Source of the DNA: Heterobasidion occidentale
Lineage: Eukaryota > Basidiomycota > Agaricomycetes > Russulales > Bondarzewiaceae
Direction of reading: 5' to 3'
Assembly: GCA_039111635.1 (NCBI GenBank)
Contig: JBCAQO010000008.1
Span: forward strand, 620,001-684,000
Length of the DNA stretch: 64,000 bases
The notes under the pieces are model-generated. The model made no database searches, had not been told where the DNA came from, and was given only the letters and a program-made list of their open reading frames with translations. The position numbers were made by a program, and so were the translations under genes. Positions 52,873 to 58,560 of this stretch are shown piece by piece. Each line of letters opens with the position of its first letter. Within the stretch, counting starts at the first letter, position 1.

Positions 52873-55870
52873 TCATGAAGGCTGAACCGAGCGGAAACGG
52901 AGATGCCTAACAATCAACAAAACAAAGAACAGGACACCTAACACATTGAACAATATAAGAACGAGGGAGCTTGCTATAACTGAACGGCAGGTTTCAGTCC
53001 AAATGTCTTGGTGACCCTGTTGAAAGTTTGTGAGCGAGACTATCCCATTGTCAGCACAGTTTGCGCACCACATCTTGAGACTGATCCATGTAAACCGGTA
53101 CGCGATAGTCCACTGCCTGGTTTCTATGAGGTCACGTAACATCACGATGAAACTTCTTGGAACGAGACTATAATTGATGAGCTCAAGTTCGTGGACTTCA
53201 AGCAGTTTCTCGCTTGGAATGGTTGAACGCAAAGCACGGAATCGTTCTAACGCCATCTTGGCGGTCGGTCGCCGAGAAGGGTTCTGAGATGTCATATCTC
53301 GCAATAAAACCAAGAGGACGGGTGTCTCGTCCGCAGCATCCTATAAGTCAAACTACTTCAGATCACTGTGACGAATCCTGATTTTTTTTAAAACGACAGA
53401 CCTTGAGCCATCCATAAAGCGTGCGTGCTGCTGCGTAGACATCTGCGGCAAATGGATTGTAATTGGTGACTCTTCTCATCTCAGGAGCCCGGTGCTTCCT
53501 TCCCTGAGGAAAAGGCTCTGCGAGACATTTGTCAAGACTCGTGTCTTTTGCAAAATACTGGGAATATCCGAAGTCCATGAAAAGGTATCGCGCAGGAAAT
53601 GTTGATCGCCACTCAGGAGGAGGCCATATTTTATAGATCGGCTCAAACGGCGTAGTCCAAGTTTTAGTCTGTGGCACCGTCCCATGATGGTTAATGAGAA
53701 TATTGTCGCATGAGATATCCTAGGAAGTATCAGTCGGAATGAGATATCGGTGCGAGGTCCAATGCATGGAGAAACTAACCAGGTGCGCTATGCGATTTTC
53801 GTGCAGAAATGCGAGACCCTATGTTGAATAATTGACCCAACAGTTTGTGAGCATGGAGAAGGGGCCACTGAGTGATCCACTGGATGCCTTTCCGTAAGGA
53901 TTTAGGGTCAAATCCCACCACCCTAAACCTGATCGACCGTGTAGCCGGGCCGAATTTGAGCTCCGCTGATGCTGTCGCGAGGGGTCAAGCCGCTGTCCTA
54001 AATGCACACTCTAGGCAGGGGGTCACCCCCCCATCCTAGACCTAAATCCTGACCCTAGACGTATCTTAGCACATGTAACCTTCCAAATATGGCATGCCGA
54101 ACAGATGCCGCAATCCCGCCGTCATATCGGGTCATTGCGGACATTCTGTCGCATTTCCCTTCATTTCTCTCGAATTTTCCTCCTTACCCATATCATACAT
54201 TCATTTCTTTTGAAAACCCACATTCCTTTATTGATTCTACACTATGGATCCCCAAAACCTCCTATTCAATACCAATATGACCGAAATGGCATCTCATTCC
54301 TTCAAGCAGCAGATGGAAAATTTTATCCTGCACATCTCTTTCGAGAACCTCTTTGAGAGGATGTAAGTATTCTAAATATACAATCTCGTGAGCCATCTGG
54401 TCTGCATCGGGCCATGTGATGGCGGCATCAGGCATCTCTCTTAGCACATCGCGGAGGACTTGCAATGAAAAGGAAACATAGCGGCTGACGGTGCTTGGAA
54501 TGAGGGCAAAAATCTCCTGGAGGCTCGTTGTGGGCATTGCTGATGATATATAGTGAAGAATGAGTCCGAGTGCACCTGCGGAATCGAGTGATCGACGTCC
54601 AAGTCGTGGCGCACCTGCAGAGGCCGTATCGGGACGAGGTATTGCCGTGGAATCCCAATGTGCCGCAAAGCCAGCCTCCAGAAGTGTCTGAAAAGTGTTG
54701 CAGTCAACACCCATGGTTGTGATGAAGGCTTGGTTGCTCTGGCTTGCATACAGGACTTGCCAGGCTGTTCCTGCACGAAGGTTTGGCATCAGTTGTGGTC
54801 GACAAAGATAGGTTCGGGTCTGCCTCCGACGCTCCAGCCGGCGTTCGTTGGCTTCTTCAGCACCAATAAGGATAAGGAGGGCGAGAGCAGCAAGCTCTTC
54901 TTCGTCGCTGTCATCGTCGCTGTCGAGGCGGTGGTTCATGACGAGTGTGTAGCACCGACAGTCGAGACGGCACGCGCAGCGCGCAAATTACCGATTCCTA
55001 GATCCTAAACTGGTCTTACGGTTTAGGACTCAGATTCCTAAATGTTTTCAAATTGTACTGAAATCTTATTTAGGTTCGATGCAACGACCCTAGATCCTTA
55101 CGGAAAGTCATCCACTTACTGCCAAGACCTGATCTGCGAATTCAAACCCTCCGACACGTTCAAAAAAGGCAGTTCGTCGCATTGATCGCAGAATGGCATG
55201 ACAACGAAGTGCCAGTCATTAAATTCGAGAAATTCCAATACGGGCACTGTCGCATTGGCAGGATCTGAGCGCAAAGGTTCCGAATTGAGTAGCTGGAGAA
55301 TTTCCAACTCTCGTCGCCCTTCGTCGCCTCTCGATACTACCTTGATGACGACATCTCGGTTCTCCCTATACGAGATGACACATGATTCAATACCTTTCAA
55401 ACAAAGCAGGCAGAACGCATGAGACTACCTATCCCGAGCAGCGACAACTTGCGAAAACTACGAGTGCTGTCAATAGTTCTCCTCCTGTCGTTCTGTCTGA
55501 GCCACTTACGGGAAAAAAATTACTTTTCAGTTGGCTTCGATCTCCGTATAATCCAAACGAATCAAGAGCAGGGGATGGTGGCAAAGACTCGTCAGGATAA
55601 GTCATGCTATTGCGGCCGCGCGAACGAAATCGTTGATAGCCCGCTGTGTTGAAAAAACTACTTAGTGCCTCCCATGGCTGCTGCCACTGAGGTTCATCCG
55701 TTGGACAGATATCTCTCCATGCCCGCAGTGAGACGGGAAGGCTCTACGTAAACTAAGATGAGTAACATGTGTCCGGGCAATATAGAAACGCTCACTGTCT
55801 TCTCGTCAAGAAGCATAACCATTAAAATATCCAAGGCGTCGAAGAAGTGCAGATGCTGTGAGAGTGGTCT
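52873..55870 (-). CDS. Atypical protein kinase-like gene, copy A, with a transposon in an intron
   Basis: The amino-terminal region reads LPVSLRAWRDICPTDEPQWQ and FFNTAGYQRF. The ATP-binding lysine is in VVIKVVSRGDEGRRELEILQ, and the catalytic loop is ISCDNILINHHG. The DFG motif is in LFMDFGYSQYF, and RRPTAKMALERFRAL lies in the carboxy lobe. A single membrane helix (VLILFNVLGVLFFVLLIVRHL) ends the protein at 52873. This kinase-like family is expanded in agaricomycetes; substrates are unknown. The intron after the segment coding the NVSEG region has been enlarged from about 80 bases to 1.3 kb by a 1,232-bp element (53882-55113). The splice donor and the exons are undamaged, so splicing could still work. 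The exact 5' end is unclear. Confidence 0.75.
53882..55113 (-). mobile_element. Harbinger-like TIR transposon, 1,232 bp, internally deleted
   Basis: Both ends share a terminal inverted repeat of about 28 bases with two mismatches; it begins GGATGMCTTTCCGTAAGG. The flanks carry a 3-bp target duplication ACT (53879-53881 and 55114-55116). Kinase copy B keeps the empty site with a single ACT. A minus-strand ORF encodes only the amino-terminal part of a DDE-type transposase, so the element looks non-autonomous. Three-base duplications and this transposase type point to the PIF/Harbinger group. Confidence 0.9.
54262..54939 (-). CDS. Truncated Harbinger-type transposase
   Basis: The 225-residue ORF starts MNHRLDSDDDSDEEELAALA and contains AGTAWQVLYASQSNQAFITT, MGVDCNTFQTLLEAGFAAHW, RLGRRSLDSAGALGLILHYI and SLQEIFALIPSTVSRYVSF. 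These match the amino-terminal helical region of fungal DDE Tnp4 transposases. The sequence then turns into unrelated residues (DVQDKIFHLLLEGMRCHF) and stops. The catalytic DDE domain, which should follow, is absent from the element. It is therefore unlikely to be active itself; a full-length relative elsewhere would have to mobilise it. Confidence 0.8.
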   Translation of the reverse strand: MNHRLDSDDDSDEEELAALALLILIGAEEANERRLERRRQTRTYLCRPQLMPNLRAGTAWQVLYASQSNQAFITTMGVDCNTFQTLLEAGFAAHWDSTAIPRPDTASAGAPRLGRRSLDSAGALGLILHYISSAMPTTSLQEIFALIPSTVSRYVSFSLQVLRDVLREMPDAAITWPDADQMAHEIVYLEYLHPLKEVLERDVQDKIFHLLLEGMRCHFGHIGIE

Positions 55871-56933: not shown

Positions 56934-58560
56934 TTACAATTGAACGGCAGGCTTCAGTCTAAGTGTCTTGGTGATCCTAATCGACATTTGTGAGCGAGAA
57001 ACCCAACTGACAGCACAGCGTACGCACCACATCTTGAAACTGATCCATGTGAACCGGCACGCAAGAGTCCACCTTCTGGTCTCGATGAGGTCACGTACCG
57101 TCACAATAAAACTCCTTGGAACGAGATGGTAATCGACAAGCTCAAGTTCGTGGACTTCAGTCAATTTCTCGCTTGGAGTGGTGGGACGCAGAGCACGGAA
57201 TCGTTCTAACGCTGCCTTGGCGGTCGGTCGCCGCGAGGGATTATAAGATGACATATCCTGCAGTAGAGTCAAGAAGCTAGGTGTCTCGTCCGCAGCGTCC
57301 TAGTGATTGACCAATTTTTAGGTCACGGTGACGATTGCTGGCTATTTGACAGACCTTGAGCCATGCATAAAGCAACCGTGCGGTCTGGTAGACATCTGCA
57401 GCAAACGGGTTATAACTCTTGGTTCTTGTAGCCTCGGGAGCCCGGTGCTCCCTTCCTTGGGGGAAAGGCTCCACCAGACATTCGTCAAGACTGGCATCTT
57501 TTGGGAAATACCGGGAATATCCGAAATCCATGAAGAGGTATCGCGCAGGAAATGTTGATCGCCACTCAGGAGGAGGCCATATTTTATAGATTGGCTCAAA
57601 CGGCGTAGTCCAAATTTCAGTCTGCGGCACCGTCCCGTGATGGTTGATGAGAATATTTTCGCATGAGATATCCTAGGGAGTATCAATCGGAATGAGATCA
57701 TCGGTGCTCGGGACATGATGACACTTGCCAGGTGAGCTATGCGATTTTCATGCAGAAATGCGAGACCCTATGTTGAATGATTGACCCAACAGTTTGTGAG
57801 CATGGAGAAGGGGCCACTAAGTGATCCACTTACTGCCAGGACCTGATCTGCGAATTCAAAGCCCTCCGACACATTCAAAAAAGGCAGTTCGTCGCATTGA
57901 TCGCATAATGGCATGACAACGAAGTGCCAGTCATGAAATTCGAGGAATTCTAATACTCTCACTGTCGCATTCGCAGGATCTGAGCGCAGAGGCTCCGAGT
58001 TGAGTAGCTGGAGAATTTCCAACTCTCGCCGCCCTTCGTCGCCCTTCGACACTACCTTGATGGCGACATCTCGGTTCTCCCTATGCGATACGTCACATTA
58101 CAACATATTCCAGAATAGGCAGAAAGCACGATACCTATCCCGAGCAGCAATAACTTGCGATAACTAAAAGTGCTGTCAGGAGTTCCACTCACTCCATTCT
58201 GTTTGAAGTACTCACAGGAGGAAACTTGCTTTCCAATTGACTTCGATCTCCGTACAAACCAAAGGAATCAAGAGCAGGGGATCGTGACAAAGGCGCGTCG
58301 GGGTATGTCCAGGTACCAGAACTGCGTTCATGGAAATCGTTCGTAACCTGCTGTATTGAGAAAAGTACATAGAGACTCCCATGGTAACCACCACTGAGAT
58401 TCTTCCATCGGCGAGATGTCTCTCCAGGCTCGCAACGAGACAGGAAGGCTCTATGTGAACCAAGATGAAGAACATATATTTAGTGGAATGCTGAACTGCT
58501 CACCGTCCGCTCGTCCAAGAAGCATAACCGTTATATGATTCAAGATTTCAAAGAAGTGTA
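56934..58560 (-). CDS. Atypical protein kinase-like gene, copy B
   Basis: This paralogue of copy A has closely similar sequence throughout: REELEILQ-type N-lobe (GDEGRRELEILQLLNSEPLR), NVSEGFEFADQVLA, GLAFLHENRIAHL, SCENILINHHGTVPQ, MDFGYSRYFPKDASLDE and RRPTAKAALERFRALRPTTP. The intron that carries the transposon in copy A is here about 80 bases and empty. The amino-terminal part (around 58330-58360) has a stop just after TAGYERFP where copy A stays open. The carboxy-terminal membrane helix is not found in frame. It is probably non-functional or truncated relative to copy A. The stop at 56934 is the end of the written frame. Confidence 0.65.

Follow-up and report, generated by a model that had tools for sequence, protein, structure and literature searches.

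Our results indicate that a 1232-bp insert in a protein kinase intron of Heterobasidion occidentale is very probably a non-autonomous, internally deleted member of the PHIS superfamily of DNA transposons, one that its target site and ends place in the Pangu (Harbinger2) group. The insert lies in the window, i.e., the whole 64,000-nucleotide stretch of contig JBCAQO010000008.1 (positions 620,001 to 684,000) that was analyzed, within one of two tandem kinase gene copies (copy A), whose neighbor (copy B) carries the empty site. It constitutes a base-exact example of a transposon group sparsely sampled in fungi: the ends match, the tandem paralogue preserves the empty site, and the flanks of the siblings point to an A-N-T (ANT) target. 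The features of the element are:

53882..55113, no strand: 1232-bp DNA transposon, non-autonomous and probably of Pangu type (PHIS superfamily), from its ends, three other full copies and one split copy
53882..53909, plus strand: left terminal inverted repeat (TIR), 28 bp, 26/28 matching the right end
55086..55113, minus strand: right TIR, 28 bp, 26/28 matching the left end
53879..53881, no strand: left target-site duplication ACT, from the sequence and the single ACT in copy B
55114..55116, no strand: right target-site duplication ACT, whose minus strand, AGT, forms the final three bases of the donor GTAAGT
54340..54357, no strand: approximate, putative internal deletion junction, from the end of homology to longer relatives and the copy alignment

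The TIRs begin with GGATG, and the inverted ends and exact borders described in the initial annotation were borne out, together with the 3-bp ACT duplication, which is present on both sides. A repeat finder reported arms of 29 bp instead of 28 bp, because the left flanks of the copies end in T (6/6) and the right flanks start with A (5/5).

A search for sibling copies with these ends, proposed in the initial annotation, was carried out on the assembly (45,052,067 bases in 159 contigs). The end pattern, consisting of 20 bases with one free position and up to two mismatches allowed, was found at 11 places, all 11 with zero mismatches, and the reversed pattern used as control at none, a count far beyond chance. 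With the element as query, the DNA search returned eight matches, namely four full copies (the window copy, C8:2119245, C1:2164016 and C8:2165793), a split copy on C29 in two halves, 46 bp of left end on C7, and the far end of the second copy. The four full copies and the split copy share about 98% identity, the C7 match being a solo left end; the full copies are 1228-1238 bp long, and any two of them show 8 to 22 differences over about 1230 positions (<2%). The putative deletion junction is common to all five copies covering that region. In a five-row copy alignment, 15 of the 30 two-state columns correspond to C-to-T or G-to-A changes at CpG; only gap-free columns were counted, columns with gaps being left out, and four of the 30 (53984-53988, in the window copy alone) may represent a small shift and not substitutions. 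Pairwise comparison likewise showed that part of the differences between L001 and its siblings are small shifts (clusters 53984-53992 and 54023-54026). The excess of CpG changes is consistent with decay through deamination of methylcytosine, and may be a sign of cytosine methylation.

The position of the element was resolved by comparing the exon models of both kinase copies:

53819..55119, minus strand: copy A intron with the element, 1301 bp, from the exon model against copy B
55120..55364, minus strand: copy A exon before this intron, one base shorter than in copy B, its frame lost before the donor
53780..53818, minus strand: copy A exon after the intron (GLAFLHENRIAHL), junction as in P0121
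53402..53719, minus strand: next copy A exon (DISCDN...), from the exon model
57768..57833, minus strand: copy B intron, 66 bp, empty site with a single ACT at 57828-57830
56934..58079, minus strand: copy B with a Pkinase domain, one open frame over four modelled exons, the upstream exons lying outside the model

Copy B matches Pkinase at E 3.5e-14, and its best homologue among 31 is the Heterobasidion irregulare protein P0121 (81% identity), in which the junction (...ILA/GLTFLHENRIAHL) coincides exactly with the exon edges modelled around the intron that holds the element. At the equivalent place copy B holds one ACT and no insert, within flanking sequence closely matching that of copy A, and the intron lengths agree to the base (66 + 1232 + 3 = 1301). 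The empty site reported for the neighboring paralogue is thereby confirmed, and so is the retention of the donor: on the minus strand GTAAGT is kept, its last three bases (AGT) being the duplicated target. Regarding intron growth, the final size of 1.3 kb stands, and the starting size of about 80 bases is corrected to 66 bp. Likewise, the statement that no exon was touched is literally true; nonetheless, the adjoining copy A exon is off frame, and harmlessness to a working gene is therefore unsupported. The copy A frame reaches a stop inside the donor, or about 10 codons past the normal splice, whereas the H. irregulare homologue is intact. Because the one-base exon deficit loses the frame, copy A is probably a pseudogene, unless the deficit is an assembly error. 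A genome search with the 82-aa kinase exon located three places: copies B and A, and a site on C10 matching at 46%. In copy B, the second of the modelled introns (57728-57673) starts with GC (GCAAGT), copy A having GTTAGT there.

According to the initial annotation, the insertion followed the tandem duplication, and this order is supported. The kinase copies are separated by a synonymous divergence (Ks) of about 0.39, with a nonsynonymous to synonymous ratio (Ka/Ks) of 0.23, and the element copies differ by less than 2%. Over 286 compared residues (the part of the first exon beyond the deficit and the end of the last exon being left out), copy A is identical to P0121 at 268, to copy B at 242, and copy B to P0121 at 242; because copy A is nearer to P0121 than to copy B, the duplication that gave A and B probably preceded the separation from H. 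irregulare. In addition, P0149, from a European Nucleotide Archive (ENA) record, appears from its translation to read through the intron without the element. We judge from these divergences that the insertion is much younger than the kinase duplication. An insertion predating the duplication, with copy B losing the element later, would rely on precise excision, which is reportedly known for PIF/Harbinger elements; set against the 8 to 22 differences among full copies, the kinase Ks, the P0121 identities and the apparently element-free intron of P0149, this sequence of events is extremely improbable, and it was rejected.

The group assignment relies on the target site and the ends. PIF/Harbinger proper is defined by a TWA (TTA or TAA) target duplication, and Pangu by an ANT duplication with TIRs of 11-40 bp usually beginning with AG or GG, according to Han et al. 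(2015; PMC4482050), where the species reported to carry Pangu include three basidiomycetes; PMC12730594 equates Pangu with Repbase Harbinger2. Read in element orientation, our copies have ACT, ACT, AAT, AAT, ATT and, for the solo end, ATT on the left; on the right they have ACT, AGT, AAT, AAT and ATG. Hence, ANT occupies 10 of the 11 flanks and TWA none, with a perfect duplication in three of the five two-ended copies, and for this reason the Pangu label is used instead of PIF/Harbinger. The designation "Harbinger-like" of the initial annotation is valid for the superfamily, which holds PIF/Harbinger, and does not extend to PIF/Harbinger proper. A canonical PIF/Harbinger element, with a TWA target and a Myb/SANT second protein, would share the superfamily, the ends starting with G and the DDE_Tnp_4-type relatives; however, with no TWA among 11 flanks this identity was rejected as very unlikely, and Myb/SANT sequence was not seen either, in copies that retain no more than 37 codons of a possible second gene.

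The coding content of the element is consistent with a deletion derivative of a Harbinger-type transposon, and comprises:

54355..54939, minus strand: N-terminal 195 codons of a DDE_Tnp_4-type transposase, by homology, ending at LHPL, immediately short of where its relatives have their first catalytic Asp
54244..54354, plus strand: 37-codon frame, possibly the 5' end of another, convergent gene that the full-length element, now lost, would have carried

The transposase frame continues without homology to 54262, giving 225 aa altogether. Protein relatives numbered 173 at E <= 0.001 among 4735 candidates; the best 120 of the 173 are those described here. Pairwise identity between the fragment and the 42 relatives aligned with it ranges over 42-55%, and a precomputed PF13359 match is present on 9 of the best 120 and was confirmed for P0111. 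By this homology the transposase fragment is genuine, and its N-terminal resemblance to proteins bearing PF13359, i.e., Harbinger-type DDE transposases, is the feature indicating PHIS membership. As the initial annotation proposed, only the amino-terminal part is encoded, the fragment stopping before the first catalytic Asp. Pfam returned nothing for the 225-aa fragment except a sub-threshold RPAP1_C match. Its structure model is helical with a weak helix-turn-helix-like part, and the N-terminal portion is perhaps DNA-binding; Foldseek gave no matches at E <= 0.001, and no solved structure matched the profile at E <= 0.1. Among viral contigs, 36 pattern matches for an encoded relative were obtained and none was confirmed. 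The 37-codon convergent frame is present in four of the five copies, shifted by 1 nt in the window copy, and a homologue search with it found none. A plus-strand GTAAGT at about 54364 was considered as a donor for this second open reading frame (ORF), and rejected as the complement of transposase codons. P0118, a protein of 150 aa from an ENA record, matches the transposase fragment at 85% identity across 42% of its length, after which it leaves the frame; given this identity, a close relative of the family exists elsewhere.

The full-length relative with a DDE domain that the initial annotation suggested looking for was not found in this assembly. A PF13359 search of the genome gave zero matches, and a 393-aa relative used as query gave six, all within its residues 8-186 and all in element copies, which supports the profile result; since neither search detected a DDE domain in the assembly, the family is, on the available sequence, non-autonomous, with its source transposase not found there. 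Some observations weigh against our interpretation: the DDE domain that phylogenetically defines the Pangu clade is absent from the copies; the duplications are imperfect in two of the five two-ended copies (ACT/AGT and ATT/ATG); the PF13359 negative is weak by itself, as the same search was positive in only 1 of 14 control genomes; and an assembly in 159 contigs may lack a full-length copy.

Carrying only an N-terminal transposase part, the element is unable to move by itself. In the mechanism that we propose, a full-length relative, not found in the assembly, would supply the transposase in trans; this would recognize the GGATGMCTTTCCGTAAGG ends and mobilize the deletion derivative by cut-and-paste, a 3-bp staggered cut would be made at an A-N-T site, and gap repair would duplicate those three bases. 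At this locus the GTAAGT donor would itself have offered the ANT, in the form of its terminal AGT (coding strand). Duplication of that triplet would leave the exon edge with a full donor and lengthen the intron from 66 bp to 1301 bp, and this long intron may be spliced. A different explanation is that the truncated protein was retained to repress transposition by binding DNA, or that the insertion was selected as an intron regulator. However, the transposase frame is broken in three of the five copies (L003, L004 and the C29 copy), half of the two-state columns (15/30) are CpG transitions typical of decay, and the kinase copy A frame is itself lost; a service to the host or the family is highly improbable on these grounds, and a conserved repressor role was rejected because of the broken frames.

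Since GTAAGT contains A-N-T, Pangu-type elements can land in a donor that the 3-bp duplication then rebuilds, and the present case shows how this may happen. A single donor insertion was seen, and it is quite unlikely that introns are a systematically tolerated landing place for these elements through donor regeneration and not by chance. Inspected by eye, the bases next to the flanking triplets are C at five of six left and G at three of five right flanks; these 8 of 11 have a probability of 0.0012 at a chance of 0.25 each, in a test chosen after the data were seen, and they may point to a palindromic target somewhat longer than ANT, namely C|ANT|G. The insertion is ordinary in kind and leaves the picture of transposon biology unchanged. 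Nevertheless, five nearly identical disabled copies for which no source was found raise the question of where the transposase came from, be it a lost copy, other strains or unassembled DNA.

Regarding the surroundings of the other copies, frames bearing Memo and biotin-carboxylase domains occur at most about 1.5 kb from L003 and L004. The solo left end (L007:1502; G000:C7:2687178; 46 bp at 98%) passes into unrelated sequence, and the end-pattern search of the genome did not find a second end for it; it adjoins a frame with a Fra10Ac1 domain (L007:683-1396, minus strand), and the ATG opening a neighboring frame (L007:1105-1521, minus strand) is one base away from it. The C29 copy (L005, L006, L035-L037; G000:C29:17309-40657) is split by a 23.3-kb insert with ends CATCAGCAAAATTG..CAATTTTGCTGATG and a 2-bp duplication GT, whose termini resemble PlavakaB elements as described in PMC12730594. 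L035-L037 hold 14 frames of at least 200 aa, six of which were scanned: four match retrotransposon gag, RT-RNaseH or integrase-chromo families and two match nothing, no Plavaka transposase being identified among these six.

In our literature search, conducted for the most part on listings, no mention of this element was found, and its closest counterpart is the Pangu group. With Pangu, as portrayed in PMC4482050, it shares the 3-bp ANT duplication, confirmed here by a paralogous empty site, the 28-bp TIR beginning with GG, and a transposase related to DDE_Tnp_4 proteins. Conversely, it measures 1.2 kb and lacks the DDE domain, whereas autonomous Pangu candidates average about 3.5 kb in that text and have two ORFs, the second without known motif, which here may persist as the 37-codon stub. 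PIF/Harbinger proper has in common with it the superfamily, a TIR starting with G and a related transposase, and differs in its TWA target, absent from all 11 flanks; a Myb/SANT protein, its second protein, was not seen here, where a possible stub of a second gene is all that is left. Finally, Introners, as presented in PMC9860276, are also non-autonomous elements with TIRs, and in them, too, a splice site comes in part from the target duplication; however, Introners create a new intron, whereas in this case the intron already existed, as the 66 bp of copy B indicate, and none was made.
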